From Cystobacter fuscus (GTDB lineage: Bacteria > Myxococcota > Myxococcia > Myxococcales > Myxococcaceae): a DNA stretch of 64,000 nt. The stretch is taken from assembly GCF_002305875.1 (NCBI RefSeq), contig NZ_CP022098.1, positions 2,170,001-2,234,000 on the forward strand, given 5' to 3'. Below, piece after piece: positions 6,308 to 62,844 of this stretch (positions are counted from its first letter, which is position 1; each line of letters opens with the position of its first letter). Position numbers and translations under genes: made by a program. The notes under the pieces were generated by a model. That model ran no database searches and was not told the DNA's origin. It saw only the letters and a program-made list of their open reading frames with translations.

Positions 6308-6319
6308 GGTCCAAGGACT

Positions 6320-9068: not shown

Positions 9069-9159
9069 GTGATGGGGCTCCCAGATGGGGGACGGCCGGG
9101 TCGGGGAGGGTTCTACAACCGCCTCCCGGGTCCTCCAAATGGCTGGGCGCCCCATCGGC

Positions 9160-10608
9160 TCAGGCGGCGGCGTCCACCCGCCCCAGGCCCGGGCTCGGGC
9201 TGGGACCCGGCCGGGCCGGCATCCGGTCCAGGTTGGCCCGCTGGTGCCTCGGCACGAAGAAACTCTTGAGGTTGTACACCAGCAGCGCCCCGAGGAAGCC
9301 GGGCTGCAGCAGCCCCAGGATTCCCTTGCGCAGGTGGAGCGCCTCGTAGAAGGTCCGGCACGACGCGGCGTGCTGGGACGTCAGGTCGATCATGTTCTGG
9401 AAGGACCACTGGAGGAACTTCAAGCCGATGGGGCGCTTGCCCTCGGCCCGCGGGTGCGCCAGGTCCATGGTGGTGGTGAGCGTCCAGCACAGCCCGATGA
9501 GCCCGGCGAGCTTCTTCTGGAAGGGCCGCGCCACCTCCAGGGGCAGGCCCTCCGGCGAGACCTTCGCCCGGGCGATGCACTCGCCGAGGAACTTCGCTCC
9601 CAGGGCACCCACCGTCATGCCCTGGCCGAAGACGGGGTTGAGGGCGCACACCGCGTCCCCCAGCAGCACGAACCCCTCGGGCCTCCGGGCCAGCCGCTCG
9701 TAGTGCAGCCACCGGCTCGACGGAATCTTGTGCAGCACGGGCGCGGTGAGCGGCCGGGCGTCGCGGATGTACTCGTAGATGGCCGGCGTGGGCAGGCCGC
9801 GCGCGAACTCCAGGAAGCCCGCGTCGTCGGTGGGCGCGTGGTCGCCGAAGTAGCCGTTGAGGCTGACGATCCACCGCCCTCCCTCCACGTTGGAGATGAA
9901 GCCCGAGCGCTGGCTCTCGGGCGCCTTGCCATTGAGCACGAGGATCTTCCACGCGTCGAAGCCCGGGGGGCGCTCGTAGAGGCGGCTCGTGTAGCCCAGG
10001 TCGATGCGTACCTGATCCTGCTCCACCTGGCCGAAGCCCAGCGCCTCCAACCACTGCGGCGCCCGGGAGCCCCGGCCGCTGGTGTCCACGATGAGCGCGC
10101 CTGGAATCTCCTGCTCTCCCTCCGGGCCCTTCACCTTCACGCCCACGACGCGGGTGCGCGAGGCGTCCAACACCAGATCCTCGACGCAGTACCCCGTGCG
10201 CAGCTCCACGTTGGGCAGCGCGGCGACGCGGCCGCGGATCTTCCACTCGAGGAAGGGCCGCGACACGAGGATGGTCTCGATGTCTCCCTCGTAGCGCGCC
10301 TTCCAGCTTCCCGACTGGAGCCAGGCGGCGTCCCGGGCCATGTCGATGAACTCGACCCCCCCCGTCTCCAACTCCCGCCGCAAGCCCGGGAACAGCCCCT
10401 CCATGGTCTTGAGCCCGGCCTCCAGCACCGCGTGGATGTGGCGCCCCTGGGGCGTGCTCTTGCGCGCCTCGGGCCCCTCGGGAAATGGCTCGCGCTCCAG
10501 GACGAGCACCTTGTCGAAGTGATCCGCCAGCACCCGGGCGCTCAACAGCCCCGCGATGCTTCCTCCGATGATCACAGCCTGTCCGAACCTATGCGTGTTG
10601 GGCTTCAT
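9160..10608 (-). CDS. FAD-dependent monooxygenase/oxidoreductase
   Basis: 482-residue flavoprotein of the UbiH/aromatic hydroxylase-like group. The N-terminal Rossmann motif VIIGGSIAGLLSARVLADHF binds FAD, residues VLEREPFPEG follow as the ribose-binding Glu region, and GDAVCALNPVFGQGMTVG is the second FAD-binding (GD) motif. The C-terminus (LLQPGFLGALLVYNLKSFF) is hydrophobic and may contact the membrane. The ATG at 10608 has an AAGGGGGAA site. It diverges from an SDR reductase across 206 bp, suggesting a shared control region. Substrate unknown. Confidence 0.85.
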   Translation of the reverse strand: MKPNTHRFGQAVIIGGSIAGLLSARVLADHFDKVLVLEREPFPEGPEARKSTPQGRHIHAVLEAGLKTMEGLFPGLRRELETGGVEFIDMARDAAWLQSGSWKARYEGDIETILVSRPFLEWKIRGRVAALPNVELRTGYCVEDLVLDASRTRVVGVKVKGPEGEQEIPGALIVDTSGRGSRAPQWLEALGFGQVEQDQVRIDLGYTSRLYERPPGFDAWKILVLNGKAPESQRSGFISNVEGGRWIVSLNGYFGDHAPTDDAGFLEFARGLPTPAIYEYIRDARPLTAPVLHKIPSSRWLHYERLARRPEGFVLLGDAVCALNPVFGQGMTVGALGAKFLGECIARAKVSPEGLPLEVARPFQKKLAGLIGLCWTLTTTMDLAHPRAEGKRPIGLKFLQWSFQNMIDLTSQHAASCRTFYEALHLRKGILGLLQPGFLGALLVYNLKSFFVPRHQRANLDRMPARPGPSPSPGLGRVDAAA

Positions 10609-10814
10609 CTACTTCCCCCTTGTCGATTGGTCAGACTCGCCGGACCATTCGGTACCGGACGATATATGAGAATCCGAGAGGGTACTCGTGTGCCGCGCAC
10701 GCTTCCCCTCCACTCGGGTGAAGGATGTTTCGCTGCTGGTGTGAATGGCTGCGCTCGCCCGTGGCTCGGGATAGCCTTCACGGAAAGATTCACATCAAGA
10801 GGAACATCAAGCGC

Positions 10815-11558
10815 ATGCCCAGGCTCGATCAGAAGGTGGCCATCGTCACGGGAAGCTCCCGCGGCATCGGTGCCGCGGTCGCACGGAGGCTGGCGGCCGA
10901 GGGCGCCAGGGTCGTGGTCAACTACGCCCAGAGCGCGCAGGCGGCCGAGGACGTGGTGCGCTCCATCCAGGCCGCGGGGGGCGAGGCCCTCTCCTGCCGC
11001 GCGGACGTGGCGGACGAGGCGCAGATGCAGGCGCTCTTCGACACCACCCGCCAGCGCTTCGGGGCCGTGGACATCCTGGTCAACAACGCGGCGGCGCAGG
11101 CCCCCGCGTCCCTGGACACCCTCGATCGGGCGCTCTTCCAACGGCTCGTGGAGGTCAACATCTGGGGGCTCATCGTGGGCTGCCGCCTGGCGGGGCGCCT
11201 CATGTCGGACCGGGGGCGCATCATCAACTTCTCGTCCGTGAGCGCGCACAAGAACATCGCCTGGGATGGCATGTACGCGGCCACCAAGGCCGCCGTCGAG
11301 TCGCTCACCCGCACCGCGGCCATCGAGCTCGCCCCGCGGGGCATCACGGTCAACGCGCTCATCATCGGCCTGGTGGCCACGGACATGGTGAGCGACGTGC
11401 CCCTCAAGGTCCGGCGCACCATCGCGTCGCAGACGCTGCTGGACAAGGTGGGCCGCCCCGAGGACATCGGCGGCTCGGTCGCGTTCCTCGCCTCGGAGGA
11501 CGCCCGGTGGGTGACCGGGCAGACGCTGGGGGTCAACGGCGGCTACCTCATGAAGTAG
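10815..11558 (+). CDS. SDR family oxidoreductase (3-oxoacyl-ACP reductase-like)
   Basis: 247-residue classical short-chain dehydrogenase. Visible motifs are TGSSRGIG (cofactor binding, residues about 12-19), NNAA, the catalytic Ser in INFSSVSAH, YAATK (catalytic Tyr and Lys) and a C-terminal GGYLMK. The RVVVNYAQS stretch after beta-2 suggests NADP(H) preference. The ATG at 10815 places TGSSRGIG at its usual distance; the 30 in-frame codons upstream are not SDR-like. It diverges from the FAD monooxygenase. Annotating it as FabG would be guesswork. Confidence 0.88.
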   Translation: MPRLDQKVAIVTGSSRGIGAAVARRLAAEGARVVVNYAQSAQAAEDVVRSIQAAGGEALSCRADVADEAQMQALFDTTRQRFGAVDILVNNAAAQAPASLDTLDRALFQRLVEVNIWGLIVGCRLAGRLMSDRGRIINFSSVSAHKNIAWDGMYAATKAAVESLTRTAAIELAPRGITVNALIIGLVATDMVSDVPLKVRRTIASQTLLDKVGRPEDIGGSVAFLASEDARWVTGQTLGVNGGYLMK

Positions 11559-11746
11559 GCCACCCGGGGGGCCCGCGGCGCCTGGCCGTCGGGTGTGACC
11601 CTTCCTGTCGAATCGGGTCGGGAACGAGGAACCTCACAGGCTCCTCTCCTGCCCTCCGCCCGAGGAGGCCCGGCTCTCCCCTCCCCGGAATGATCCGAGG
11701 TGCGAAACAGCGGCGCGGGAAAAAACGGTGCTAGGATGAAAACGCG

Positions 11747-13570
11747 ATGAACAAGCCTGAGTTGAAGCGTCTGGTCTGGCGTTGCTACCTGGAGCAGCAG
11801 TTCGCGATGTTGACCGCGCTGGTGCCGGTGGCCTACCTGCTCACGTTGGTGATGGGCCTGGAGTCCAAACTGGCCCTGAAGGTCTTCCTCATCAACGCGA
11901 CGTGCAACACGCCCATTTTCGGCAACGTCATCACGTTCTTCTTGATTCGTTACTTCGTGACGAGCGCCGTGACCCCGCGGCCCGAGGATCTGCCGGGTGA
12001 GCGTCTGCGGCGCATCCTCAAGGCCCCGCGAAAGATCGAGATCGGCGTGATGCTGGCCTACCAGGGCTCCTGTATCACGTGGGCCACCTGGCCCGTGGTG
12101 AAGTACAGCCTGAATCCGTGGATCATCCCCCAGTCGATGCTCGCCTTCGGCCTGCTGGCGATGGTCGTCGGCATCCGCATGGCGCTGCGCATGGAGCGCG
12201 TGCTGCGGCCCCATGCCATCGAGGAACTGCACAAGTACCCGCAGCTGCGCATCGACGACGAGCGCGGCTTCCTGTGGCCCAAGCAGAGATGGTTCCTGCC
12301 CTACTGCTTCGCCATCTTCGTGTTCGCCACGCTGACGGTGACGGGGATGATCATCTCGAAGCAGAGCGCCAGTGGTTACGACAAGATGTTCGCGGAGCTG
12401 GCGGATATCGCTCCGACGCTCCTCTCGTTCGTGCAGACGCAGGTGGCCGGCATCCTGGACTCGCTCATCATTCCCATCGTGGGCGTCGGTGGCTTCATGA
12501 CCTTCTCCGCGGCGTGGTGCGCCTGGGAGATCGCGCGCCACCAGAGCGCGGGCTCGGGCGCCGTGCAGAAGTCCATCGGCTCCATCGCGTCGGGCAAGCC
12601 GATGCTGCCCTTCTGGGTCTCCACCGACGAGGTGGGAGATCTGTCCATGGCCACCGCCTCCGCGTTCGAGCGCTTGCGCACCTTCTCCTCGTCGCTCAGC
12701 GACTCGGCGCAGACGCTGGGCGACTCGGCCGGACGGCTCAACAGCTCGCACAAGGAGCAGACCGAGGCGCTCTCCATCCAGGCCGCGGCGCTGCAGGAGA
12801 CCCAGGTCACCGCCCAGGAGATCCGTCAGACGTCGATGGTCGCCGCCCAGAAGGCGGAGGACGTGCTGCAGCAGGCCGAGCGCGCGGATCAGATCGGCCG
12901 CGCGGGCGAGGCGGCGCTCGAGCAGAGCCTCTCGGGCATGCATGAAATCCAGCAGCAGGTGATCCAGATGGCGCAGAGCATCCGCTCGCTGGATGAGCGG
13001 GCGCAGCAGATCGCCAACATCACCACCACGGTGAAGAGCCTGGCGGACCGCTCCACCATGCTGGCGCTCAACGCCGCCATCGAGGCGGTGCGCTCGGGCG
13101 AGCACGGCAAGGGCTTCAGTGTGGTGGCGCGGGAGATCCGCAGCCTGGCGGACCAGTCCGTCAAGGCCACCTACAACGTGCAGAACATCCTGCAGGACCT
13201 GAGCGAGTCCATCCGCACCACGGCCGACATGACGGAGAGCGGCTCGGGCAAGGTGCAGGGCAGCGTGCAGCAGCTGCGCTCCTTCGGCGACAACATCAAG
13301 CAGCTGTCGGGCATCGTGCGCGACAACGTGAACTCCGTGCGGCAGATCTCCGCGGCCGTCACCCAGCAGAACCAGGGCATCGGGCAGATCTTCCAGGCGG
13401 TGAATGACCTCACGAAGATCATGGATCAGACGATGACGAGTCTGCGCACGAGCGACGAGGCCGCGGACCACATGCGCATCGTGGCCTCGCGCGTGACGTC
13501 CTTCGTCGAGGAGTACAACTTCCAGACCGCCCTGAACTCCGAGGAGACTCCCTCGGCCGAGCGGGTGTAG
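11747..13570 (+). CDS. methyl-accepting chemotaxis protein with polytopic N-terminus
   Basis: 607-residue transducer. The N-terminal 280 residues carry about six hydrophobic segments (near 20-38, 45-70, 102-120, 128-150, 186-206, 240-262) in place of the usual two-helix periplasmic sensor. A short linker that may be a degenerate HAMP follows. The MCP signalling domain spans roughly 330-590, with the CheA/CheW-contact hairpin around [38 protein letters not shown]. No other che gene is adjacent, so it must dock to a kinase encoded elsewhere. The sensory input is probably membrane-linked (inference). Confidence 0.9.
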   Translation: MNKPELKRLVWRCYLEQQFAMLTALVPVAYLLTLVMGLESKLALKVFLINATCNTPIFGNVITFFLIRYFVTSAVTPRPEDLPGERLRRILKAPRKIEIGVMLAYQGSCITWATWPVVKYSLNPWIIPQSMLAFGLLAMVVGIRMALRMERVLRPHAIEELHKYPQLRIDDERGFLWPKQRWFLPYCFAIFVFATLTVTGMIISKQSASGYDKMFAELADIAPTLLSFVQTQVAGILDSLIIPIVGVGGFMTFSAAWCAWEIARHQSAGSGAVQKSIGSIASGKPMLPFWVSTDEVGDLSMATASAFERLRTFSSSLSDSAQTLGDSAGRLNSSHKEQTEALSIQAAALQETQVTAQEIRQTSMVAAQKAEDVLQQAERADQIGRAGEAALEQSLSGMHEIQQQVIQMAQSIRSLDERAQQIANITTTVKSLADRSTMLALNAAIEAVRSGEHGKGFSVVAREIRSLADQSVKATYNVQNILQDLSESIRTTADMTESGSGKVQGSVQQLRSFGDNIKQLSGIVRDNVNSVRQISAAVTQQNQGIGQIFQAVNDLTKIMDQTMTSLRTSDEAADHMRIVASRVTSFVEEYNFQTALNSEETPSAERV

Positions 13571-13591
13571 TGGGGAGCACCCTGGCGGCCG

Positions 13592-14293
13592 TCAGCCGGC
13601 GGCCGCCAGCACCCGCCCCGTGCCGTCCGTGAGCAGCAGCGCGTCCAGGACGGACGGGGGCTCGCCGAGCCCCGGGGGCAGATCCCACGTGTCGAGCTTC
13701 ACCCGCAGGGCCAAGAGCCCCGCGTGCGCGTGGAGCAGCACGGGACGCACCGCCACCTTCTGCAGGGGGGCGCGCAGCCCCACGCCCCACACCTTGAGCA
13801 CCGCTTCCTTCATCGCCCAGGCGGCGGTGGTGGCATCCACCTCCGCCCCGCACACGCTGGCGTAGCCCGCGCGCTCACCCGGAGCGAAGGCCTCCTCGAG
13901 GAAGGCCTCGCCCACCTCCACCCGCTCTTCCAGGTCCACGCCCAGCGCGCCGCCGCGCGCGAGCGCCGCCACCGCCAGGCCCGTGGAGTGGGAGATGGAC
14001 AGCGCGAGTCCCCGCTCGGGCACGAGCACCGGGCGGCCCGCGTCGGCTCCCTCGGCGCGCGCCGTCACCTCCGCCCGGGCGCCGGGCTCCAGGTGCTCGA
14101 GGGCGCGGTGCGCGGCGAGCCGGCCCGCGACGAACTCCCGCCGCCGCTTGGCCGTGCGGCACCGGGCGAGCCCCTCGCGCTCCAGGCCGGAGAGGGCGGC
14201 GTCGTCCTCCGCCCCCACCTCGGCCCAGCCCAGGAAGAGCTCCCGCCCGCCGGGGAGCTGGAGCCGCTCAGCCCTCCGCACTCCGCTGCTCAC
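13592..14293 (-). CDS. 4'-phosphopantetheinyl transferase (PKS-associated)
   Basis: 233-residue Sfp-type transferase that moves phosphopantetheine from CoA to carrier proteins. Visible signatures are LSISHSTGLAVAAL, GVDLEE (metal-binding Asp and Glu) and WAMKEAVLKVWGVGL (the WxxKEAxxK motif). The GTG start at 14293 lies 26 nt inside the 3' end of the PKS gene; a second in-frame GTG at 14281 also overlaps it. This overlap makes it the last cistron of the PKS operon and implies that its targets are the ACPs of the upstream polyketide synthase. Those ACPs show Thr, not Ser, at the attachment position. Confidence 0.9.
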   Translation of the reverse strand: MSSGVRRAERLQLPGGRELFLGWAEVGAEDDAALSGLEREGLARCRTAKRRREFVAGRLAAHRALEHLEPGARAEVTARAEGADAGRPVLVPERGLALSISHSTGLAVAALARGGALGVDLEERVEVGEAFLEEAFAPGERAGYASVCGAEVDATTAAWAMKEAVLKVWGVGLRAPLQKVAVRPVLLHAHAGLLALRVKLDTWDLPPGLGEPPSVLDALLLTDGTGRVLAAAG

Positions 14294-48301: not shown

Positions 48302-49189
48302 ATGCGCTTTCTTCACTGCTCCGATGTCCACATGACGGCCGACTACCCGTCGCTGCCCATGCGCCCCCTGGGCTGGAGGAGGTGGCTCGCCATGTTCGAG
48401 CAGACCCTGGGCGGGCGCCGCAAGGCCTACGCGCGGGCGCCCGGGACGCTCGCCACCATCGCGGACGACGCGCGGCGCTGGGGCGTGGATCACTTCATCC
48501 TCTCCGGTGACGTCACCCAGTACGCGCTGGAGCCCGAGTTCGTGCTCGCGCGCCAGGCCCTGGGCGAGCTGGCCGAGGACCCGGGCCGGTGCACCATCGT
48601 CCCCGGCAACCATGATGTCTTCACGCCGGGCAGCCTCCGCTCGGGCCGCTTCGCGCGGCACTTCGGCCAGCTCCTGCACAGCGATCTGCCCGAGCACCAA
48701 CGCGAGGGGGCCTTCCCCTTCGTGCGGCTGGTGGGCCGGGACGCCGCGGTGGTGGGGCTCTTGTCCGCGCGGGTTCCGGTGGTCCCCGGGGTCGCCTCCG
48801 GTCTCATCGGCGCGCAGCAGTTGGAGGGGCTCGCGGCGGTGGTGGCGGATCCGCGGCTGGAGGGCCGGGCGCTGTTGGTGGTGGTGCACCACGCCCCCTT
48901 CACGCCCAGGGGCGGCGCGGATCGTCCCCTGCATCGGCTGCGGGACGCGAAGGCGCTCATCCGTCTGTTACGGGGCCCACGCTTCGCGGTGCTGCACGGC
49001 CACATCCATCACCGCTACCACCTGCCGGCCACGGCCGAGCGGCCACATGTCTTCTGCGCGGGCTCGTCCACCCAGGCCGGACGCGAGGGCTACTGGATCA
49101 TCGAGGTGAACGAAGGCCAGGTGGTGGGCGGGCACCAGCACGTCCCCGGAGGGCCGCACACGCCCGCCGCCGCCGAGGCTCATGCCTGA
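48302..49189 (+). CDS. calcineurin-like metallophosphoesterase
   Basis: 295-residue class III phosphodiesterase-like enzyme with all five metal-binding blocks: HCSDVH, SGDVTQ, PGNHD, VVHHAP and HGHIHHRY. It is closest in pattern to the CpdA/Icc family that cleaves cyclic nucleotides, though many members act on other phosphodiesters. The ATG at 48302 places the first block at residue 5, as usual. Its 3' end overlaps the following convergent gene by 10 nt. Confidence 0.9.
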   Translation: MRFLHCSDVHMTADYPSLPMRPLGWRRWLAMFEQTLGGRRKAYARAPGTLATIADDARRWGVDHFILSGDVTQYALEPEFVLARQALGELAEDPGRCTIVPGNHDVFTPGSLRSGRFARHFGQLLHSDLPEHQREGAFPFVRLVGRDAAVVGLLSARVPVVPGVASGLIGAQQLEGLAAVVADPRLEGRALLVVVHHAPFTPRGGADRPLHRLRDAKALIRLLRGPRFAVLHGHIHHRYHLPATAERPHVFCAGSSTQAGREGYWIIEVNEGQVVGGHQHVPGGPHTPAAAEAHA

Positions 49190-49557
49190 AGACGAGGTGA
49201 GGCGTAGCGCCGCACGAAGTGGATCCACCGGCGCTCATCCACCTCCACCTGCCACTCGGTGTTGGGCGTGAGCGGCAGGCGCTGCTCGAGGAAGGACTCC
49301 AGGTGGTCCGCGGCCTTCACCGGCGTGAGGCCCGGCGCGCGGAAGGCGATGCGCAGGAAGACCTCCAGCGAGGGTGTCACCTCGACGACGGCGTAGATGC
49401 GCAGCGGCCCGACGCGCCGTTGGTTGTGCACGTCCTGCGCGGGCACCACCGTCACTCCATTCGTCAGGGCCGCCGTCCAGTTGGATGGATCCAGGGCGAA
49501 CTCCAACAGCTCGACGCTCGCCTCTTCCAGACTCGCATGCTCATGGATGGAAAGCAT
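49180..49557 (-). CDS. hypothetical protein
   Basis: 125-residue soluble protein starting MLSIHEHASLEEASVELLEF. It contains an alternating strand-rich middle (LRIYAVVEVTPSLEVFLRIAF) and a helix (AADHLESFLEQRL). No family recognised. The ATG at 49557 follows a GGAGGTG ribosome site at 5 nt, which supports a real gene. Convergent with the metallophosphoesterase. Confidence 0.68.
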   Translation of the reverse strand: MLSIHEHASLEEASVELLEFALDPSNWTAALTNGVTVVPAQDVHNQRRVGPLRIYAVVEVTPSLEVFLRIAFRAPGLTPVKAADHLESFLEQRLPLTPNTEWQVEVDERRWIHFVRRYASPRLQA

Positions 49558-49743
49558 TCCCCCACCTCCTGTCGTGGCCGTTCGCGATCGAGGATGTGCC
49601 CAGCTCCCAGGGGGTGCAAGGGGGCGGGGAGCGCTTCTGGCGGCGAGTTCTCCCGTGCGTCCTCCACACGTCAACCACTCGTCAGTAACGCGGTGCGCGG
49701 TGTGGCGGCGCTCGGGGGAATGACTCACAGTGTGTTCTGTCCC

Positions 49744-50949
49744 TCAACGTCCGAGCGCCACCGACGCGAGGAAGCGCCACGAGAGCCGGGTGGCCTCGCC
49801 GCTGATCACGTCGATGAGCTCGTCGCGGGTGCGCTCGTCGCGGCACGCCGTGCGGAAGACGCGATCCAACAGCCGTGGCCGCTCGAAGGCCCACATGAGC
49901 CGGCGGTTGAGCCGGAACGCGGTGCGGAAGCGCGTGCGCCAGCGCCGCGCGTAGCCGCCGAGCCCCCGGGCCGACAGGTCTCCCGCGTTCACGGCCTCGG
50001 CCACCGCCTCGGCGGCGAAGGCGCCGGACTCCAGGGCGAACTCGATGCCCTCGCCGGTGAGCGGGTTGACGAAGCCGGCCGCGTCCCCCAGCAGCAGCGC
50101 CTGATCGAAGGTGGTGTGCCGGGCCGAGGAGCCGAAGGGCAGGTGGTGTCCCTTCGGCCGCCCCAGGCGCCGGCCCCCGGCGAGCTCCGCCGCCACGCGA
50201 GGGCTCGCGCAGAAGCGCTCGAGCAGCTCGGGCAGCCGCGCGCCGGACGCGGCGAGATGGTCCGCGCGCATGCCCAGGCCCACGTTGGCCCGGCCTCCGG
50301 ACAGCGGGAAGATCCACCCATAGGCGGGCAGCAGCGCCTCGTCCCAGAAGAAGCCCAGGCCCCGGGGGTGTGACAGGCGCACGTTCTCGTAATAGGCGCG
50401 GATGGCGAAGGCGCACTCGTGCGCGGGGAAGTCCGGGGCCCCGAGCGCGCCGCGGATCACCGAGGGCGAGCCGTCACACCCGAGCACCACGTCGGCGAGC
50501 AGCGATTCGCCCTCGAGGCTGCGCAGCCGCAGCACGTCGCCCTCGCGCTCCAGACCCACCACGCGCACGCCCTCGCGCAGGGTGGCGCCGGCCTGGACGG
50601 CCCTGTGCGCGAGCCGCTCATCGAGCACCTCCCGGGGGATGATGCTGGCCTTGCCGCCGAAGAGGTGGGCCGGAATGGCGGCGTCCCACACCACGCCGCC
50701 CGGGGACACGGCGTGCACCGAGTCCACGGGCGTCCCGTCGGTGCTCGCCAGCGCGCCGAGCCCCAGGCGCTCCAGCATCCACAGCGTCCGCGGCGTGCAG
50801 CCATCCCCACACGTCTTGTCGCGGGGAAAATGGCCGCGCTCCAACAGCGTCACCCGGGCGCCCTGCTGCGCGAGGAAGGTGGCGGCCGATGAGCCCGCGG
50901 GTCCTGCTCCGACGATGACGACATGGGGGGCGGAGGTACGGCGGGGCAT
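49744..50949 (-). CDS. geranylgeranyl reductase family FAD-dependent oxidoreductase
   Basis: 401-residue flavoprotein. The N-terminal FAD motif VVIVGAGPAGSSAATFLAQQG, the LLERGHFPRDKTCGDG block, the YGWIFPL segment diagnostic of the geranylgeranyl-reductase family, and GDAAGFVNPLTGEGIEFAL are all present. Members saturate isoprenoid chains or reduce related lipids. The ATG at 50949 is 53 nt after the cheR stop, on the same strand, so it may share the chemosensory transcript, though a functional link is not obvious. Confidence 0.88.
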   Translation of the reverse strand: MPRRTSAPHVVIVGAGPAGSSAATFLAQQGARVTLLERGHFPRDKTCGDGCTPRTLWMLERLGLGALASTDGTPVDSVHAVSPGGVVWDAAIPAHLFGGKASIIPREVLDERLAHRAVQAGATLREGVRVVGLEREGDVLRLRSLEGESLLADVVLGCDGSPSVIRGALGAPDFPAHECAFAIRAYYENVRLSHPRGLGFFWDEALLPAYGWIFPLSGGRANVGLGMRADHLAASGARLPELLERFCASPRVAAELAGGRRLGRPKGHHLPFGSSARHTTFDQALLLGDAAGFVNPLTGEGIEFALESGAFAAEAVAEAVNAGDLSARGLGGYARRWRTRFRTAFRLNRRLMWAFERPRLLDRVFRTACRDERTRDELIDVISGEATRLSWRFLASVALGR

Positions 50950-51002
50950 GGCGCGCCCTCTTACTACTACGCCGGCTCCGTTCGCGAGGGACGGATCCCG
51001 TC

Positions 51003-51911
51003 TCACCCTCGCGCGGCGGACACTGCGGCCGGGGAGGCGCGCGGCGCGTAGACGGTGGGCATCACCGCGCGTACGCGCGTGCCCAGGCCCAGCAGGCTCT
51101 CGGAGTGGCCGAGGAAGAGCATCCCCTGGGGGTACAGATGGTTGAGCAGCCGCTCCACGGCCCGGGCCCTCGAGGTCGGGTCGAAGTAGATGAGGACGTT
51201 GCGGCAGAAGAGCAGGTCGAAGCGCCCCACCACCGCGTTGTCGTCATTCAGGTTCACCCGCTGGAAGCGCACCAGCGCGCGCAGGTTGGCGTCCGCCTTC
51301 ATCCACGCCTCCTGGCTGCCCACGCCGCGCAGCATGTAGGCGCGCAGGTAGGGCTTGGGAATCTGCACCGCCTTCTCCACCGGCCAGCGCGCCTGCCGGG
51401 CCTGCTCGAGGATGCGCGTGGAGAGATCCGTGGCGAGGATGTCGATCTCCCAGCCCTCCTCGGCCGGCAGGTGGTGGCGCAGCACCATGGCGAGGGAGAA
51501 GGGCTCCTCGCCCGTCGAGCATCCCGCGCTCCACACCCGCACCCGCCGCCCCTCGCCGCTGCCGGTGTCCCCCTGAGCGCGCCAGCGCGGCAGCACGTCG
51601 CGCGCCAGGAAGTCGAAGTGCCGGGGCTCGCGGAAGAAGTGGGTCTCGTGCGTGCACAGCGCGTCCAACAGCCGCACGCGCTCGGCGCTGTCCTCCTCCG
51701 CCCGCCGCAGGTAGGTCGCGAAGGAGGGGTTGCCCAGCTCGCGCAACCGGCGCGACAGCCGCCCCACCACCAGCGCCTTCTTCGCGGGCGACAGCCAGAT
51801 GCCCGCCTCGCGGTAGATGAACTGCTGGATGCCGGTGAACTCCCGCTCGGACAGCGGCGGGGGCTCGGGGGCCACTCCCGCCCCGGACTCCACCCCGAGC
51901 ATCGGTCTCAT
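51003..51911 (-). CDS. cheR: chemotaxis protein methyltransferase CheR
   Basis: 302-residue SAM-dependent methyltransferase that methylates receptor glutamates. The N-terminal CheR helix domain (FTGIQQFIYREAGIWLSPAKKALVVGRLSRRLREL) is followed by the catalytic domain with HETHFFREP, the SAM site VWSAGCSTGEEPFSLAM, LATDLSTRIL and FCRNVLIYFD. The ATG overlaps the cheW stop (ATGA). The receptor upstream lacks a C-terminal pentapeptide tether. No cheB is adjacent. Confidence 0.95.
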   Translation of the reverse strand: MRPMLGVESGAGVAPEPPPLSEREFTGIQQFIYREAGIWLSPAKKALVVGRLSRRLRELGNPSFATYLRRAEEDSAERVRLLDALCTHETHFFREPRHFDFLARDVLPRWRAQGDTGSGEGRRVRVWSAGCSTGEEPFSLAMVLRHHLPAEEGWEIDILATDLSTRILEQARQARWPVEKAVQIPKPYLRAYMLRGVGSQEAWMKADANLRALVRFQRVNLNDDNAVVGRFDLLFCRNVLIYFDPTSRARAVERLLNHLYPQGMLFLGHSESLLGLGTRVRAVMPTVYAPRASPAAVSAARG

Positions 51912-52450
51912 GCGACCTTCCCGGTGGTGCGCTCGGTGTCCTCCCCGGGCGGGGCCCGCAGCGCCGTGGCCGACAGCACTTCCTGGCCGCTGAGCACCTT
52001 GTCGATGTCCAACAGCAGGATGAACTTGCGCGCCGTGCCGACGCGGCCCATGCCCAGCAGGTAGTCCACGTGCACCGGCGTGCCGAAGGCGGGCGGGGGC
52101 GCCACGTCCTCGGGCCCCAGCTCGATGACCTGGCCGATGGCGTCGGCGAGCAGGCCCAGGACGATGTCCTCGTTGCCCTGCCGCACCTCCACCACCACGA
52201 TGCAACTGCGGCGCGTGAGCTGGATGGACGGCAGGCCCAGCTTCACCGTCAGGTCCACCACCGGCACCACGCTGCCGCGCAGGTTGAACACGCCGCGCAC
52301 CCACACCGGCGCTCCCGGGACGCGGGTGACGGTGTCGTACTCGATGATCTCCTTCACCCGCAGGATGCCGAGCGCGTACTCCTCTCCGGCGAGGATGAAG
52401 CTGAGGTACTGCGTGGCGGCGGAAGTCTCCTCGCTCATGTCACTCATCAT
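51908..52450 (-). CDS. cheW: chemotaxis coupling protein CheW
   Basis: 180-residue coupling protein linking receptors to CheA. It has the CheW fold, with YLSFILAGEEYALGILRVKEIIEY, RGVFNLRGSVVPVVDL (the conserved NLRG turn) and VGLLADAIGQV-like strands. A 30-residue charged tail follows the domain. The ATG at 52450 overlaps the stop of the receptor gene by 1 nt (TGATG); ATG 52438 is an alternative. Third gene of the operon. Confidence 0.95.
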   Translation of the reverse strand: MMSDMSEETSAATQYLSFILAGEEYALGILRVKEIIEYDTVTRVPGAPVWVRGVFNLRGSVVPVVDLTVKLGLPSIQLTRRSCIVVVEVRQGNEDIVLGLLADAIGQVIELGPEDVAPPPAFGTPVHVDYLLGMGRVGTARKFILLLDIDKVLSGQEVLSATALRAPPGEDTERTTGKVA

Positions 52451-54138
52451 CACACCTGGAAGCGCTTGAAGTCCCGATCCTCGTCGGGATGGGAAGCATG
52501 GGCGGGGGCTCGGGGGGCTGGCTTGGACGCTCCGGCGCCGAGCCCGCTCGAGGCGGCCTTCAACCCGGCGGAGGGAGAGTGCACCTGCGGGCGGAGGGCG
52601 GCCGGGGGACGCGTGCCGCGCTCGGAGCCCTCGGCGAGGTGGAAGAAGGACACGAGCTGTTGCAGCGCCTCCGCCTGGGCGGACAGCTCCTCGGCGGTGG
52701 AGGCGAGCTCCTCGGAGGCCGAGGCGTTGCGCTGCGTCACCTGGTCCACGTGCAGCATGGCCTTGTTCATCTGGGTGACACCGGTGGCCTGTTCGGCCGA
52801 GGCGGCCACCACCTCCTGCACCAGGTCCGACGTCTTGCGGATGGAGGGCACCAGCTCCGAGAGCAACTGCCCCGAGCGCGACGCCACCTTCACGCTGCTG
52901 GATGCGAGCCCGCCGATCTCCCGTGCCGCCGTCTGGCTGCGCTCGGCCAGCTTGCGCACCTCGGTGGCCACCACCGCGAAGCCCTTGCCGTGGGCTCCCG
53001 CGCGCGCCGCCTCGATGGCCGCGTTGAGCGCCAGCAGGTTGGTCTGGTAGGCGATCTCCTCGATGATGGTGATCTTCTCCGCGATGGAGCCCATCGCCTC
53101 CACGGTCTCCTTCACCGCCTTGCCGCTCTCCTCCGCGTCCCGGGCGCCCTGGAGGGCCATCTGCTCCATCTGCCGGCTGTGGTCCCGGTTCTGGGTGATG
53201 GTGGACGTCATCTGCTCCAGGCTCGCGGTCGTCTCCTCCACGCTGGTGGCCTGCTCGTTGGTGCCATGCGACAGGCTCTGCGAGGAGGAGGACACCTGGG
53301 CCGACGCGGAGGCGAGCGTGCTGGCGCCCTCGCGCACCTCGCTGATGACCTGGGAGAGCTTGAGCACCATGCGCTGCATGGCCGCGAGCAGCCGGCCCGT
53401 CTCGTCCTGGGTCTCCGCGGTGACCCGCACGCCCAGGTCGCCATCGGCGATGCGATCCGCCACCCGCAGGGCCTCGGTGAGCGGTTGGGCGATGATCCGC
53501 GCGATGAGGATGCTGAGCAGTACGCCGACGAGCAGGCTGAACCCCACGACGCAGAGGACCCACCACCGGGCGACGGCGTAGATGACGTCCGAGTCATCCG
53601 AAGCCTTGCGCGAGGACTTCTGGATGGCCGTCACCAGCTCCCCCAGCTTGTCGTTGGCGTCCTCGTAGAGCTGTTGCGCGCGGCTCTGTTCGATGCCCTG
53701 GAGCTGCTCCAGGGTCGGGCTGGTGCGAGACTGTGCGATGACGCGCTCGTGTTCCTCGAGGAAGTTCGCCCAGAGCCGGGTGAACTCCTGGTACATGCGC
53801 CGCTCGTCCTCGGTGGAGATGAGCGCCTCGTAGCCCTTGAGGTTGTTCTCGATGGACTCCAGCTCGCGCTGCATGCCCCGCTCGTGTTCGGCCTTCTTCG
53901 CGGCATCGATCGTCAGCACGTGCTTCATCTCGAGGATGACGAAGTCCGAGGTGTCGGTGTTCACGGCCGATACGAAGTTGAGGCTGGGCATCCAGACGTC
54001 GGTCACCAGGTCCGTCGCGTCATTCATCTTGCCCAACTGGTGGATGGCGAAGACACCCAGCACGACGTTGAGCGCGCTCAGGCCGAGGAAGGAAAGGAGC
54101 AGCTTGGTGGAGATCTTCAGGTTGTAGAACCAGGTCAT
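52450..54138 (-). CDS. methyl-accepting chemotaxis protein (4HB-type sensor, HAMP)
   Basis: 562-residue receptor. TM1 is about residues 12-32 ([20 protein letters not shown]). A helical periplasmic domain of about 150 residues looks like a four-helix bundle (4HB_MCP). TM2 is about 190-212, HAMP about 213-265, then the signalling domain with the tip [43 protein letters not shown]. The C-terminus is a Pro/Ala-rich tail without an NWETF-type CheR tether. No good ribosome site precedes the ATG. It lies 29 nt downstream of cheA. Confidence 0.94.
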
Positions 54139-54167
54139 GGGGGGAGGGTGCTTCGGGTAGTGAAGAC

Positions 54168-55799
54168 TCAGGCGACGGCGGCGGGAGGAGCCGCCTGGAG
54201 CACCTGGTGAAGGAGGGCGGGGACGTCGAGGATGAGGGCGACCCTGCCGTCCCCGAGCAGGGTGGAGCCCGAGAGTCCGGGCAGTCCCTGGCAGAACCTG
54301 CCCAGGGGTTTGATGACCGTCTGGCCCTGGCCGAGCAGGGTGTCCACGGCGAGGCCCGCGAGGCCGCGCTCGTGGCCGATGACGACGAGGTTCTCCCGGG
54401 CGGGCGTGCTGCCTCCCAGGCCGAAGTGCTCGCGCAGGCGCAGGTAGGGCAGCGCCGAGCCGCGCAGGCTGAAGACGCCGGTGCGGCCCGGGCGGCTCTC
54501 CGCGGAGGGCAACTCCACGCACTCCAGCACGTTCTGCAGGGGAATGACGTACGTCTCGGCCCCCACCGCGACGTTGAAGCCCTCGATGATGGAGAGGGTG
54601 AGCGGCAGGCGGAGGCTGAAGGTGGTGCCCTGGCCCGGGGTGCTGTCCACGGACACGGTGCCCCGGAGGGCCTCCACGTTGCGCTTCACCACGTCCATGC
54701 CCACGCCGCGGCCGGACAGCTCGGTGATGCGCTCGGCGGTGGAGAAGCCGGGGGCGAGGATGAGCCGCAGCAGCGCGCCGTCGTCCGGCGTTTCCTCCGC
54801 CCCCAGCATGCCCAGGGCCCGGGCACGCGCGGCGATGCGCTCGCGGTCCAGGCCCGCGCCGTCGTCCACCACCTGGATGAGGAGCGTGCCCGCGTCGTGG
54901 ACGGCCCTCAGGCTCAGGGTGCCGGTGGGCTCCTTGCCGCGCGCCTGGCGCACCTCGGGGGTCTCCATCCCGTGGTCCATGGCGTTGCGCACCAGGTGGG
55001 TGAGCGGATCCCGGATGAGCTCGGCGATCGTCGTGTCCACCTCCACGTCCTCGCCGCTCAGCTCGCAGCGCACCTGCTTGCCCATGGCGAGGCCCAGGTC
55101 ACGCACCGTGCGGACGAAGGGCTGGAAGGTGCGCCCGATGGGCACCATCCGCACCTTCATCACCAGCTCCTGCAGGTCCAGGTAGAGCCGGTCCCCGTCG
55201 CGGTGGGCCTCCAGCAGTTGTTGGGGCGTGTAGCGGTGTGCCTGCCCGAGCATCTCCGCGAGCCGCCCGCGCGCGATGGCGATCTCCCCGGTGAGATCCA
55301 ACATCCGGTCCAGTCGTCCCAGCCCCACGCGCAGGGTGTGCTCCCGGTGCGCGGAGGGCTCGGCCGGAGACGCGGGCCGCTCTGGTGCCGCCGCGCGCGT
55401 CTGGGCGGGCTGGGAGGCCTTGAGCGTGCTCTCCAAGAGCCGCCGCACCTCCTGGGCCGGCAGCCGCTGGGCGGACTCGCTCGCGGGCTCGAGGCCCACC
55501 TGTTCGCGCAGCACGTCCACGGCCTGCAACATCAGCGAGCCCAGCCCGGCGTGCAGGACGACGGCCCGGGCCTCCAACAGCGTGAGCAGATCCTCCAGCA
55601 GGTGGGCCAGCTCCACCGCCGCGGTGAGGCCCACCGAGCCCGCTCCGCCCTTGAAGGTGTGCAGCGTGCACAGCAGGGAGGCGAGCGGTTGGGGGCCGGA
55701 CGTGCGTTCGAGCGCTAACAGGCCCTGTTCCAGCGTGGCGAGTTGCTCTTCGGCCTCGGCGAGGAAGAGGGCGTGGATCTTCTCCAGCTCGGGAGTCAT
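54168..55799 (-). CDS. cheA: chemotaxis histidine kinase CheA lacking a P2 domain
   Basis: 543-residue kinase. The HPt/P1 domain has the phospho-accepting His47 in [12 protein letters not shown]. After a Pro/Ala linker it goes straight to the P3 dimerisation helices ([25 protein letters not shown]), then the P4 ATPase ([13 protein letters not shown]-box, [29 protein letters not shown]) and the CheW-like P5. No CheY/CheB-binding P2 is visible. The ATG at 55799 fits HPt homologues. A GTG at 55847 is in frame, but the stretch between overlaps a sigma-54-like element. Confidence 0.94.
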
Positions 55800-55814
55800 G
55801 GAGGCCAAAGGCAA

Positions 55815-55832
55815 CAGCAATCCGCGCGCCAG
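55815..55832 (-). promoter_or_regulatory. possible sigma-54 (-24/-12) promoter of cheA
   Basis: On the minus strand CTGGCGCGCGGATTGCTG fits the sigma-54 consensus TGGCAC-N5-TTGCA. The invariant GG and GC are exactly 10 nt apart. Transcription would begin only a few nucleotides before the cheA ATG at 55799, giving a nearly leaderless message. The gene just upstream encodes a sigma-54 activator. Confidence 0.5.
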
Positions 55833-55915
55833 GATGACTCTGTTCACAATCGTTCGAATTTACTCGTTCCCGGTGGCGGACCCAGGCTCGACTTCCAAGA
55901 TTTTGAGTCTGGATT

Positions 55916-57274
<1,359 letters not shown>

Positions 57275-57430
57275 GGTGGTTCATCACTCACCTTCCCTGG
57301 GGGAACGCTAGGATGACACCCCGACGTTCGACCATCGCGAAGGCCCTTCAGGTCGCCGCTGTCCGTGATGTAGCCATCCGGGGTGATCCGGGCATCCCGA
57401 GGCACTCCCGGCCCTCGCGTGGGGCCCGTC

Positions 57431-58522
57431 TCATGAGGCGTGGGGCTGGCGCGCGGGGCGTGGGCGCTCCACGGCGGCCTTGAGCTGGCCACAGCCCGCG
57501 TCGATGTCGATGCCGCGGCGCTGGCGCACGGTGCTCGGCAGGCCGTAGCCCGCGAGGATGTCCTGGAAGGCGCGCACGGAGTCCGGACCGCTGGGCTGCT
57601 CGGCGTAGCCCACCGTGGGGTTGAGGGGGATGAGGTTGACGTGCGCGTCCATGCCCTCGAGCAGCGTGCCCAGCGCATGGGCCTGCTCGGGCGTGTCGTT
57701 GCGCCCGGAGATGAGGGCCCACTCATAGAAGATGCGGCGCTTGCGCTTGTGCGTGTAGTAGCGGCAGGCGTCCATCAGCTCGGCGAGCGACCACTTGCGC
57801 GCCGCGGGCACCAGCGCGCCCCGCTCCGCGTCCGTGGCGCCATGCAGGCTCACGGCGAGCTGCACCGGCCGGTCCTCGTCCGCGAGCCGGCGGATGCCGG
57901 GCACCACGCCCACGGTGCTCAGGGTGATGAAGCGCGGTCCGAGCGCCAGCCCCAGCGCGTCCACCAGGATGTCCACCGCGGCGAGAGTGCCCTCGTAGTT
58001 GTGCAGGGGCTCGCCCATGCCCATGAGCACCACGTTGCGCAGGGTCTCGTTCGTCTCGCGCAGCAGCCGCGTGACGTGCAGCACCTGGCCGATGATCTCC
58101 CCGGGCGACAGGTGGCGCACGAAGCCCATCTGCCCGGTGGCGCAGAACACGCACCCCATGGCGCAGCCCGCCTGCGTACTCAGGCACACCGTGGCCCGGC
58201 CCTTGAAGCGCATGAGCACCGTCTCCACCGTCTGCCCATCGCGCAGCCGCAGGAGCAGCTTCCGGGTGTAGCCGTCCGAGCTGAACACCTCGTGGTGGGT
58301 GGTGGGCCGCTCCAGGAGCGTGCGCTCGCGCAGCGTCGCCACCAGCTCCGGCTTCAGCCCGGTGAGGGCGTCGAAGGACTCCACCTGTTGCCGGTAGAGC
58401 GCCGTCCAGAGCAGGTCCCGGTAGTGGGCGCTGTAGCCCCAGTGGCCCAGCAGCTCGCCCAGGGCGGCGCGGGGCAGGTCGTACAGATTGACCAGGGGGA
58501 GGGCGGCGGGGGAGGCATCCAT
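57431..58522 (-). CDS. rlmN: dual-specificity 23S rRNA/tRNA adenine-C2 methyltransferase RlmN
   Basis: 363-residue radical SAM enzyme that methylates A2503 of 23S rRNA and A37 of tRNAs. The CxxxCxxC cluster motif reads CAMGCVFC within STQAGCAMGCVFCATGQMGF. GMGEPLHNYEG, STVGVVPGI and the C-terminal VRQRRGIDIDAGCGQL, with the methyl-carrying Cys, are conserved. The ATG at 58522 (MDASPAALPLVNLYDLPR) fits the family. Divergent from the FAD/NAD-binding gene. Confidence 0.96.
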   Translation of the reverse strand: MDASPAALPLVNLYDLPRAALGELLGHWGYSAHYRDLLWTALYRQQVESFDALTGLKPELVATLRERTLLERPTTHHEVFSSDGYTRKLLLRLRDGQTVETVLMRFKGRATVCLSTQAGCAMGCVFCATGQMGFVRHLSPGEIIGQVLHVTRLLRETNETLRNVVLMGMGEPLHNYEGTLAAVDILVDALGLALGPRFITLSTVGVVPGIRRLADEDRPVQLAVSLHGATDAERGALVPAARKWSLAELMDACRYYTHKRKRRIFYEWALISGRNDTPEQAHALGTLLEGMDAHVNLIPLNPTVGYAEQPSGPDSVRAFQDILAGYGLPSTVRQRRGIDIDAGCGQLKAAVERPRPARQPHAS

Positions 58523-58728
58523 CGTCGGACGGATAACACACCCCGGCCCCGGACGAAGGGGGTGCGGAAACAGACGAGCGAGCGGGCGCCGTTCCTTCGG
58601 TCCGGGCCCTGTGTCCGCCGGGGATGGAACCGGGCACCGGAGCGCCTTTTGTTGGGGAGCGGAAGCCTGCCCTGGCGCGGATGCCCCGGGGGGATGTGGG
58701 ACCTGCCGTGGGGACTTAAATTTCCACG

Positions 58729-60144
58729 GTGATAATCGAGCGGCGGTGGGACGTCCTGGTGGTGGGGGGCGGTGCGAGTGGGACGTTGCTGGTGACCCAG
58801 CTCCTACGAAACGCACCCGGCCCGTTGAGGGTGGCGCTGGTGGAACGGGAGGCCCGGACGGGACCGGGGCTGGCCTATTCCACCCCTCATTCGAGTCATC
58901 TGCTCAATGTCCCGGTGGGGCGGATGAGCGCCTTTCCGGATGACCCCGAGCACTTCCTGCGCTGGATGCGCCGGGTCGAACCCGGCACGGCCCCGGGCGA
59001 CTTCGTTGCCCGCCAGCGCTATGGCCAATACCTCGAGGCCCTCCTCCGGGAGAGCCGGCGCGCCGCGGCGCCGGGTGTCGTGCTGGAGCTGATCCGGGGC
59101 GAGGTCTCGGCGCTCTCCGAGGAGGATGGCGTCGTCCGGGTGGCGCTCGCCCAGGGCCCGTCGCTCGAGGCGCGCGCGGTGGTACTGGCCCTGGGCAATG
59201 CCCCGCCCGCCGACCTGCCCGTGGACGGGGGCGGCCTCTTCGAGAGCGCCCACTACGTGCGCTCGCCCTGGGCCCCGAGGGCCCTGGAGCACATCGAGCC
59301 CCACCATTCGGTGTTGCTCGTGGGCACGGGCCTGACGATGGTGGACACGGTGCTCTCGCTGGCCGAGCGCAACCACGAGGGCCGCATCCACGCCCTGTCC
59401 CGGCATGGCCTGCTGCCCCAGGTCCACCGTCCCAATGTCCAGCCGCGCCCGCCGCCGCGCTTCTCCGAGCCGCGCAGCGTGCGCGCGCTCTTCCACGCCC
59501 TGCGCCGCGAAATCGAGGGTCTGCCCGAGGGGAGCGACTGGCGGTGCGTGGTGGATGGGCTGCGGCCGGTGACGTCCTCGCTCTGGCGAGGCCTGCCCGT
59601 GCCGGCCCAGCGCCGCTTCCTGCGTCACCTGAGGACCCTGTGGGACGTGCACCGTCACCGCATGGCCTCCTCGGTGGCGGACACCCTCGCGCAACTGCGG
59701 CGCGCCGGCGTGCTGCACGTCCACGCGGGGCGCTTGCGCGGCTTCCAGATGTTGGACGGGGGCTGGGTGGAGGCCCGCGCGCGGCCTCGCGGGGTGGTGT
59801 TCGAGGCCACCTTCCGCGTCCAGCACGTCATCAACTGCACCGGCCCCGACTGCTCCTTCCGGGGCCAGCCCCTGCTGCGCTCGCTGCTGGAGTCCGGACT
59901 CGCCCGGCGCGATGCCCTGGGGCTCGGGCTCTCCACGGACGAGGGGGGCGCGCTGCTCGACGGCCAGGGCCGGGCCTCCGCGCTGCTCTTCACCCTCGGG
60001 CCCCTGCGCCGGGGCGAGCTGTGGGAGAGCATGGCGGTGCCGGAGATTCGCGACCAGGCCGCCGCGCTGGCCCGGCGGCTGTGGCGCGAGCTCGCCGCGC
60101 GCCCGGATGCGTTCGCTTCCCGTGATGTCCATCCCTTGTCGTGA
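58729..60144 (+). CDS. FAD/NAD(P)-binding oxidoreductase (FAD_NAD_binding_9 type)
   Basis: 471-residue flavoprotein. It has an N-terminal VLVVGGGASGTLLVTQLL motif, the LNVPVGRMSAFPDDPEHFLRW block typical of the HcnB/YdhS-like FAD-NAD-binding family, a second dinucleotide site VLLVGTGLTMVDTVLSL, and INCTGPDCSF near the C-terminus. The start is the GTG at 58729; no ATG is available close by. It lies 18 nt upstream of the glutamate-cysteine ligase gene, so the two are likely co-transcribed. Substrate unknown. Confidence 0.85.
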   Translation: MIIERRWDVLVVGGGASGTLLVTQLLRNAPGPLRVALVEREARTGPGLAYSTPHSSHLLNVPVGRMSAFPDDPEHFLRWMRRVEPGTAPGDFVARQRYGQYLEALLRESRRAAAPGVVLELIRGEVSALSEEDGVVRVALAQGPSLEARAVVLALGNAPPADLPVDGGGLFESAHYVRSPWAPRALEHIEPHHSVLLVGTGLTMVDTVLSLAERNHEGRIHALSRHGLLPQVHRPNVQPRPPPRFSEPRSVRALFHALRREIEGLPEGSDWRCVVDGLRPVTSSLWRGLPVPAQRRFLRHLRTLWDVHRHRMASSVADTLAQLRRAGVLHVHAGRLRGFQMLDGGWVEARARPRGVVFEATFRVQHVINCTGPDCSFRGQPLLRSLLESGLARRDALGLGLSTDEGGALLDGQGRASALLFTLGPLRRGELWESMAVPEIRDQAAALARRLWRELAARPDAFASRDVHPLS

Positions 60145-61653: not shown

Positions 61654-61749
61654 AAAGCGGGGGGAGGCGCTTCCGCGCTTGCGACGAGGGCCTGACCTTT
61701 GCGACGCTCCAACCCTCTTGCATGCCCCTCGTTTCGTTGGTCTGCCCTG

Positions 61750-62844
61750 GTGAGTGAGCCTGTTGCCGCGAAGGTCCTCGTCGTCGAGGACAATCGAACC
61801 ATGCTGGCCCTGATGCAGTACTACCTGAGCAAGGACTTCACGGTCTTCCTCGCCAGGTCCGCTGAAGAAGCACTCGAAGTGCTTCAGCGGGAGCAACTGC
61901 ACGCGGTCGTATCGGATCAAAACCTTGGGGACGGCTTGATGGGAGTGGATCTCCTCAAGCGGGTCTCCGAGCTCCAACCCCATGCCGCGCGCATCCTGGT
62001 GACGGCATCCCAGAAGCTGGAGGACGCCCAGAAGGCCATCAACGAAGCGCGGGTGAATCACTTCCTCACCAAGCCCTTCACCGAGCAGGAACTGAAGAAC
62101 ACCGTGGGCCAGGCGGTGCACAACGCCGCGCTGGTGGCCATCCGCGACAAGATGGTGCAGGAGCTCAAGGAGCAGCTCGGGCTGCGTCCGGCCAAGCCGG
62201 CGGCGGGGCGTTCGCCCCCCTCGAGCACCCGCATCAAGACGGTGGAGCCGCGCGCGCCGGATGCCAAGGGCGGCGGCAACCAGCCGCTCATCCCGGAGAG
62301 CGAGCGGCTCGCCTTCCGCGATGGCCTCACGGGGCTCTACAACCACCGCTACTTCCAGGAGGCGCTGAGCGCGGGCCTGTTGAGCGCGCGGCGCCGCGAG
62401 CAGAAGTTGATGCTGGTGCTCGTCGACATCGACGGCTTCCGGCGCTTCAACCTCTCGCGCGGCTACGCCGAGGGCGACAAGCTGCTGCGCCGCGTGGCCC
62501 AGTTGGTGACGGAGCTGATGGAGGATCCCGTCACCCACGCGCGCAGCGACAACTCCTCGGAGATCGCCGCCCGCTACGACTGGGACGTGTTCGGCGTGGT
62601 GCTGTGCAACGCGGACGTGGAGCGGGCACGCACCTATGCGGAGAAGCTGCGCAAGGCGGTGGAGGAGTTCGACTTCCCGGAGGGCACGGGGAGCGGGCAG
62701 GGCGAGGTGACGGTGAGTGCCGCCATCTCCGTCTTCCCGGATCCGGCCCGCTCCGAGCAGGATCTCATCTCCTTCGCGGAGAAGGCCCTGCGCGCCTCCA
62801 AGCTGGTGGGCCCCAACCGGGTGGTCATCGCCAACCAGGGCTGA
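61750..62844 (+). CDS. response regulator with degenerate GGDEF domain
   Basis: 364-residue protein. The receiver domain (about 7-125) is intact: acidic pair Glu13-Asp14 (VVEDN), phospho-acceptor Asp56 (VVSDQNL), Thr in LVTAS and Lys in FLTKPF. A Pro/Ser linker leads to a GGDEF fold (about 185-360: DGLTGLYNHRYFQEAL, DIDGFRRFNLSRGYAEGDKLLRRVA). The signature itself is RYDWD (275-279), so diguanylate cyclase activity is unlikely and c-di-GMP or GTP binding, or a scaffold role, is more probable. The start is the GTG at 61750, placed just before the receiver. Confidence 0.92.
   Translation: MSEPVAAKVLVVEDNRTMLALMQYYLSKDFTVFLARSAEEALEVLQREQLHAVVSDQNLGDGLMGVDLLKRVSELQPHAARILVTASQKLEDAQKAINEARVNHFLTKPFTEQELKNTVGQAVHNAALVAIRDKMVQELKEQLGLRPAKPAAGRSPPSSTRIKTVEPRAPDAKGGGNQPLIPESERLAFRDGLTGLYNHRYFQEALSAGLLSARRREQKLMLVLVDIDGFRRFNLSRGYAEGDKLLRRVAQLVTELMEDPVTHARSDNSSEIAARYDWDVFGVVLCNADVERARTYAEKLRKAVEEFDFPEGTGSGQGEVTVSAAISVFPDPARSEQDLISFAEKALRASKLVGPNRVVIANQG

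Follow-up and report, generated by a model that had tools for sequence, protein, structure and literature searches.

A chemosensory operon of Cystobacter fuscus as a probable module of a dispersed short-CheA system with an NtrC-like protein upstream

In the Che3/CrdA-CrdS system of Myxococcus xanthus, chemosensory (che) genes lie beside the gene of an NtrC-type sigma-54 activator. According to the available part of PMC3945109, Che3 includes a CheB of its own and a CheA with a receiver; CrdA can be phosphorylated, at D53, and both CrdS and CheA3 act on it (PMC3510030, accessible portion). The Che4 and Dif operons of the same species lack CheB, and in the accessible sections of PMC3945109 the Che4 CheA has a receiver, DifE comprises 857 amino acids (aa) and CheY is found in both operons. 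In this study, a che operon of Cystobacter fuscus was analysed within a 64-kb window, namely the whole stretch of DNA under study (bases 2,170,001-2,234,000 of a 12.35-Mb single-contig genome, G000). The operon resembles Che3/CrdA in its NtrC-type neighbour, and Che4 and Dif in being without CheB. Unlike in the former, the activator, whose receiver has no phospho-accepting Asp, seems to drive expression of the che operon; unlike in the latter, the CheA is only 543 aa long, neither CheY nor CheB is encoded locally and the former cheB is located elsewhere. The locus is probably the receptor-kinase-adaptor-methyltransferase module of a dispersed system built on short CheAs, with CheB and CheY encoded near 650 kb of the same chromosome and with the NtrC-like protein acting upstream of the operon.

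The features on which this reading depends are as follows.

55799-54168, minus strand: cheA, 543 aa, domains P1-P3-P4-P5 (Pfam Hpt, H-kinase_dim, HATPase_c, CheW), with the codon of phospho-His47 at 55661-55659
54138-52450, minus strand: mcp, the receptor gene (Pfam 4HB_MCP_1, HAMP, MCPsignal), with the C-terminal tail DFKRF followed by QV
52450-51908, minus strand: cheW (Pfam)
51911-51003, minus strand: cheR methyltransferase, the final che gene of the operon (Pfam)
57274-55916, minus strand: NtrC-like enhancer-binding protein with a pseudo-receiver, an AAA+ sigma-54 interaction domain (GAFTSA loop) and a Fis-type helix-turn-helix (HTH) (Pfam and ortholog alignment)
55908-55920, minus strand: candidate NtrC-like binding site, the dyad TCTAGAATCCAGA, overlapping the ntrC stop codon and conserved together with the promoter
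55816-55831, minus strand: predicted sigma-54 -24/-12 promoter TGGCGCG-CGGA-TTGCT (pattern TGGCGCG-N4-TTGCT), first base 32 nucleotides (nt) before the cheA ATG

The original prediction, made from the letters of this stretch, described an operon of cheA, one receptor, cheW and cheR only, and Pfam confirmed this layout; overlaps of a few bases join mcp, cheW and cheR, and the gap between cheA and mcp measures 29 bases. Its claim that CheA lacks the P2 docking domain also held, as 58 residues separate the Hpt and H-kinase_dim matches and no P2 match was found. Neither CheB nor a single-domain CheY was detected in the window, as had been predicted for the adjacent genes, by local profiles that were built from a few domains of the same genome rather than taken from Pfam, so that diverged members can escape them; the sole further receiver match of the same scan lies at 61696-62841.

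The cheB gene that is missing from the operon was traced through its orthologs. A search of 96 family genomes gave 13 relatives of the window CheA with 71% identity or more, and together with it they form a 14-row target clade (support 100/99). In all six of its genomes from genus g3 (L184-L187, L189 and L190), cheB is the last gene of the orthologous operon, after cheR, and in G080 cheW, cheR and cheB lie together on a contig other than that of cheA. The examined stretches around the locus gave no cheB match in the C. fuscus genome, G032, G033 and G034 (genus g1) or in G035, G036 and G038 (genus g7), and these seven genomes constitute one CheA subclade (support 100/100). The CheB encoded at 650 kb shares 79-82% identity over about 350 aa with the g3 operon CheBs, versus at most 49% over the catalytic domain with the eight other CheBs of its own genome, and the CheB tree placed it and the g3 proteins in one group, together with a CheB from Terriglobia (92/89, not a starred node). 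CheB matches of at least 79% were confined, among the 96 genomes, to G000, G032, G033, G002-G007 and G080; G032 and G033 carry the gene at the same kind of locus as C. fuscus does, and G034 and each of the three g7 genomes lacked a CheB match reaching E 1e-70.

The 650-kb locus (L052) encodes a REC-PilZ protein, that is, one with a receiver (REC) domain, a canonical CheY, a GAF protein, a short CheA and the CheB; its cluster annotation includes no methyl-accepting chemotaxis protein (MCP), CheW or CheR, which makes it the complement of the window locus. Its equivalents in three g3 genomes (L202-L204) hold CheY and CheA without CheB. The simplest reading is that cheB was relocated to the 650-kb locus in the g1 line. 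The presence of an orthologous cheB with a CheY at 650 kb suggests that the window locus is one module of a dispersed system. Thus the 'reduced' system of the original prediction stands for the locus and probably does not for the cell, which would combine the operon's cheB, assigned by orthology, with the family CheY. A specific cheB/cheY pair elsewhere in the genome had been named as what would speak against a reduced system; the 650-kb pair appears to be one at the level of sequence. Another candidate partner, an orphan CheB without receiver domain outside the CheA clusters (L063, 2.92 Mb), was rejected on its 36% identity to the 650-kb CheB and its very long branch.

Local profiles around Pfam matches gave 12 CheA genes in the annotated che clusters of this genome, in which Pfam also matched 9 CheB, 31 CheW-domain and 11 CheR proteins. 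Three CheAs are short and without receiver, namely those of the window, of 650 kb and of 5.51 Mb (L056, gene order cheA-mcp-mcp-cheW-cheR). The spacing between their P1 and P3 profile matches is 45-56 residues versus 126-261 in the other nine, although two of the short CheAs served to build the profile, and the larger spacings may therefore come out somewhat too wide; seven of the nine longer CheAs end in a receiver. In a CheA tree of 57 rows the short CheAs make up a single 47-row clade (support 100/100), in which the window CheA, lacking both P2 and a C-terminal receiver, is included with sequences from Candidatus Manganitrophus (Nitrospirota) and a metagenome-assembled genome of Terriglobia (Acidobacteriota). 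Myxobacterial CheAs commonly have no P2 match, and it is the short P1-P3 spacing that is unusual here; for M. xanthus the column that we read as P2 has an entry for DifE only (PMC3945109, available part). The window CheA is 51% identical to the 650-kb CheA. The phospho-His is invariant across 18 aligned CheAs and the ATP-site motifs are mostly kept; the variants are ED instead of DD before G.G in g3, IL instead of IF before PGFST in g1 and g7, and GRGVGLD where G.GVGMD is expected in G034. Altogether, three CheAs, three CheWs and two CheRs of this genome were assigned to the short-CheA family, along with six or more receptors; the genome's single family CheB and single family CheY are both encoded at 650 kb.

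A scan of named genomes returned 80 loci at 42-52% identity, from which near relatives may have been left out, and two of them (L098 and L099) were annotated. Candidatus Manganitrophus GAC4 (L098) and G001 (L197) resemble the window in having a CheA of the same clade with a receptor, CheW and CheR, and the L098 receptor ends in FKRF; unlike the window, which has no local CheY or CheB, both loci combine a single-domain receiver upstream and a CheB downstream in one cluster, the CheB match of L098 being split over two frames.

Nothing close to the 650-kb CheY is encoded elsewhere in the C. fuscus genome, where the other matches reach 37-41% identity. A family CheY at 54% or more was present in 19 of 20 genomes examined, the best match in G034 being 41%. 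Substitution of CheD for CheB was considered and rejected for this genome, in which there is no CheD. Ten of the same 20 genomes have a CheD, with none in the four g1 or six g3 genomes, and both CheB and CheD occur in G001 and G080; the two CheDs scanned whole (L193 and L198) are GAF-CheD fusions encoded between CheY and a family CheA. G034 has two family CheAs (L183 and L209) and no family CheB, CheY or CheD at the thresholds used. In G038 (L282, 8052-10171) and G036 (L283, about 8200-10119), a family CheY was followed by a CheD match and then by a frame with only the P1/Hpt domain of a family CheA, and no ATPase-domain match was found within the 17 kb examined.

The receptors of the family share a signalling-domain register and tip, and the tip differs from that of the eight other che-cluster receptors of this genome. 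The FKRF C-terminal end was found in 37 of 56 family receptor rows versus none of the 10 other receptor rows scanned, and in four of the six family receptors of C. fuscus; the window receptor has both the shared tip and the FKRF-like tail, here followed by QV. The exceptions comprise FQRF, FKSF and FKHF variants, L188, which is cut by a contig end, and receptors without such a tail (L184_5538, L189_5556, L190_5714, L292, L293 and others). In E. coli the C-terminal pentapeptide NWETF binds CheR and CheB (PMC7390727, available part). By analogy, FKRF with its preceding residue resembles this pentapeptide and is presumed to be a CheR-docking tail. QV follows FKRF in all seven operon receptors of g1 and g7, in which a CAG codon stands where the three g3 receptors read (L184_11903, L186 and L190) and L062 have TAG. 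The family receptors of C. fuscus stay in register for about 100 residues to either side of the tip, so mixed arrays of them are plausible; they include the receptor of an mcp-cheW pair at 8.15 Mb (L062). In that locus (8350-13800), the pair lies beside a roughly 1800-aa frame, the beginning of which looks, by inspection, like a serine/threonine protein kinase. Two further orphan family receptors without FKRF were noted in G000 at 11.165 Mb (L292, with one in-frame TGA in the match) and 9.588 Mb (L293).

The placement of the NtrC-like protein upstream of the operon was examined in the gap between ntrC and cheA. A promoter and dyad pair precedes cheA in 14 of 14 target-clade loci versus none of 34 other family cheA genes, one of which has a lone sigma-54-like site. 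The first base of the promoter lies 30-32 nt from the cheA ATG throughout the clade, and that of the dyad 118-125 nt, and some g3 loci hold additional dyads 111-112 nt from it; in the window, the dyad TCTAGAATCCAGA lies 89 nt further upstream than the promoter. The 16-base form of the dyad occurs once in 12.35 Mb, and in L180 the dyad is retained even though the ntrC stop codon is changed. This promoter is the only zero-mismatch match of its pattern in the window, where three matches were obtained with one mismatch allowed (1.35 expected), and the genome holds 16 matches versus 6 for the reversed control. The other sigma-54 matches were rejected as co-regulated sites, as none of 15 has the dyad within 300 bases upstream with one mismatch allowed. 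In L184, L185 and L189, an mcp-cheW pair lies between ntrC and cheA and a second promoter-dyad pair stands before it; in total the pair precedes four of the 12 mcp frames scanned (L184, L185, L187 and L189, with one mismatch in two) and none of the other eight. A -24/-12 element with a conserved upstream site corresponds to what is found in sigma-54-dependent operons under an NtrC-type activator, and the protein encoded next to such a site is the likely one to act at it. Most likely, the NtrC-like protein activates the che operon via the candidate dyad and the sigma-54 promoter. From the position of the -12 element, the start was predicted about 6 nt before the cheA ATG, with similar spacing in the orthologs, and the cheA mRNA may thus be nearly leaderless.

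The doubt of the original prediction that the activator's receiver can take a phosphate was borne out as far as residues can tell. Glu occupies the phospho-Asp position (residue 53, codon 57118-57116), D9-A10-D11 stands where a DD pair is expected, with one acidic residue gone, and the conserved Thr is gone as well. In the ortholog alignment the g3 receivers are canonical, the g7 receivers (three genomes) have lost the second acidic residue and the Thr and kept Asp53, G000, G032 and G033 have Glu for Asp53 with Ala, Ala and Ser at the Thr position, and G034 has no receiver, its gene beginning at the AAA+ domain. No significant match to a receiver remnant was found near the G034 activator. The apparent ATG of that activator (L183, about 5700-7305) overlaps the stop codon of the gene upstream, which suggests a new operon fusion; by a reading of its sequence rather than a family search, the upstream gene looks like an isochorismatase-family hydrolase. 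Between congeners, the ratio of nonsynonymous to synonymous substitution (dN/dS) is 0.22-0.30 for the pseudo-receiver and 0.19-0.21 for the AAA+ domain, a closeness which argues that the pseudo-receiver is not simply drifting. Enhancer-binding proteins of the PspF type are AAA+ activators without a receiver. Activators with pseudo-receivers form a known class (PMC12632262, available part). The present proteins resemble both in having no phosphorylatable receiver, the G034 form being AAA+-HTH, and differ in forming one orthologous series from canonical through pseudo-receiver to none.

In the proposed mechanism, the NtrC-like protein would need no phosphorylation to bind the dyad, which lies where its own gene ends, and would fire the sigma-54 promoter of cheA. 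Receptors and CheWs from the window, 5.51-Mb and 8.15-Mb loci would form arrays that drive the P2-less CheAs, and these may phosphorylate the 650-kb CheB for adaptation, opposing CheR, and the 650-kb CheY for output, perhaps with the adjacent REC-PilZ protein. The sequences establish where the orthologous cheB lies, that the CheB and CheY are unique in this genome, that promoter and dyad are conserved, that the receiver has decayed and that CheA keeps its phospho-His; the phosphotransfer partners, the mixing of arrays, DNA binding by NtrC, activation independent of phosphorylation and the cellular output are inferred from them. Several points weigh against this picture. Orthology is no proof that the CheB still serves the window receptor, the 650-kb CheA could be the sole kinase for the CheY and CheB beside it, and the target locus of G034 and of the three g7 genomes persists with no such CheB match. 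The promoter-dyad pair is missing at the 650-kb, 5.51-Mb and 8.15-Mb loci, which gives no hint that they share transcriptional control with the operon; the promoter pattern alone is not rare, which leaves the weight on the conserved pair, and the 34 control cheA genes are interrelated, with the nine other C. fuscus CheAs outside the pair scan. Full kinase activity is not certain given the Leu for Phe before PGFST in the g1 and g7 CheAs. The FKRF tail is missing from two of the six family receptors of this genome, and the two-residue extension in the g1 and g7 operon receptors could weaken docking.

Three other explanations were weighed against the dispersed system. The original prediction had the CheA signal to the adjacent NtrC-like protein, with gene expression as output in the manner of Che3/CrdA. 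In 13 of the 14 target-clade loci ntrC is indeed the neighbour of the che genes, in the remaining one the cut contig still shows the 3' end of ntrC, and the canonical g3 receiver makes an ancestral CheA-to-NtrC signal possible. However, the phospho-Asp is Glu here, an acidic residue and the Thr are lost, the whole receiver is deleted in G034, and the promoter and dyad place NtrC upstream of cheA, so this route is very unlikely in C. fuscus. The suggested comparison with Che3-type clusters likewise turned out negatively, and membership in Che3/CrdA was rejected: the window has no CheB, its CheA no receiver and its NtrC no phosphorylatable receiver by sequence, and a separate Che3-like cluster (assigned by gene content) lies at 8.79 Mb, with an NtrC only 35% identical to that of the window.

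Cross-talk, in which the window CheA would phosphorylate CheYs or CheA-fused receivers of other clusters within an integrated supermodule like Che4/5/6 of M. xanthus, is unlikely, though less so than signalling to NtrC. Such a module is reported in the available part of PMC3945109, 12 CheA genes lie in the annotated clusters and seven of them have a receiver, and the G034 CheA keeps its phospho-His and most ATP-site motifs in a genome without family CheY, CheB or CheD at the thresholds used; against it stand the family CheY in 19 of the 20 genomes and the distinct receptor tip. A decaying or orphaned locus, whose array would have no proper output in this genome after the loss of cheB and with the 650-kb cluster working separately, is a slightly poorer candidate than cross-talk. 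It would fit the cheB loss, receiver decay and tail extension in a single clade and the receptor dN/dS of 0.7-0.9 versus two congeners, but cheA, cheW, cheR and ntrC show 0.13-0.43, promoter and dyad are retained in 14 of 14 loci, and G000, G032 and G033 still carry cheB at another place.

The same clade of seven genomes shows the loss of cheB from the locus, an NtrC receiver that is decayed or deleted, and the receptor tail extension. A bolder and clearly less probable reading than the dispersed system itself is that in this one myxobacterial clade the kinase may have lost both co-encoded receivers, as cheB moved or was lost and the NtrC receiver was disabled and then deleted, which would have turned a phospho-regulated feedback loop running from CheA through NtrC to the che operon into a loop that needs no phosphorylation and sets array abundance; if so, the two kinase modules of G034 would run without any family receiver. 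The dispersed system suggests how a chemosensory system can scatter over a chromosome, and a reduced-looking locus should not be read as a reduced pathway. The graded natural series of one orthologous activator, together with a candidate promoter and binding site, makes the mechanism of pseudo-receiver activators directly testable. In the literature searched, as judged by listings, no paper dealt with the locus or with a cheB gene that had changed its position, and none described a che operon whose sigma-54 promoter is controlled by a pseudo-receiver activator encoded beside it.

No RNA family reached its gathering score in window positions 49000-60000. Distant from the che operon, the window contains a weak receptor signalling profile match (3e-14) at 11735-13567, and two orphan CheRs lie outside the CheA clusters of G000, at 0.576 Mb (L064) and 9.27 Mb (L065).

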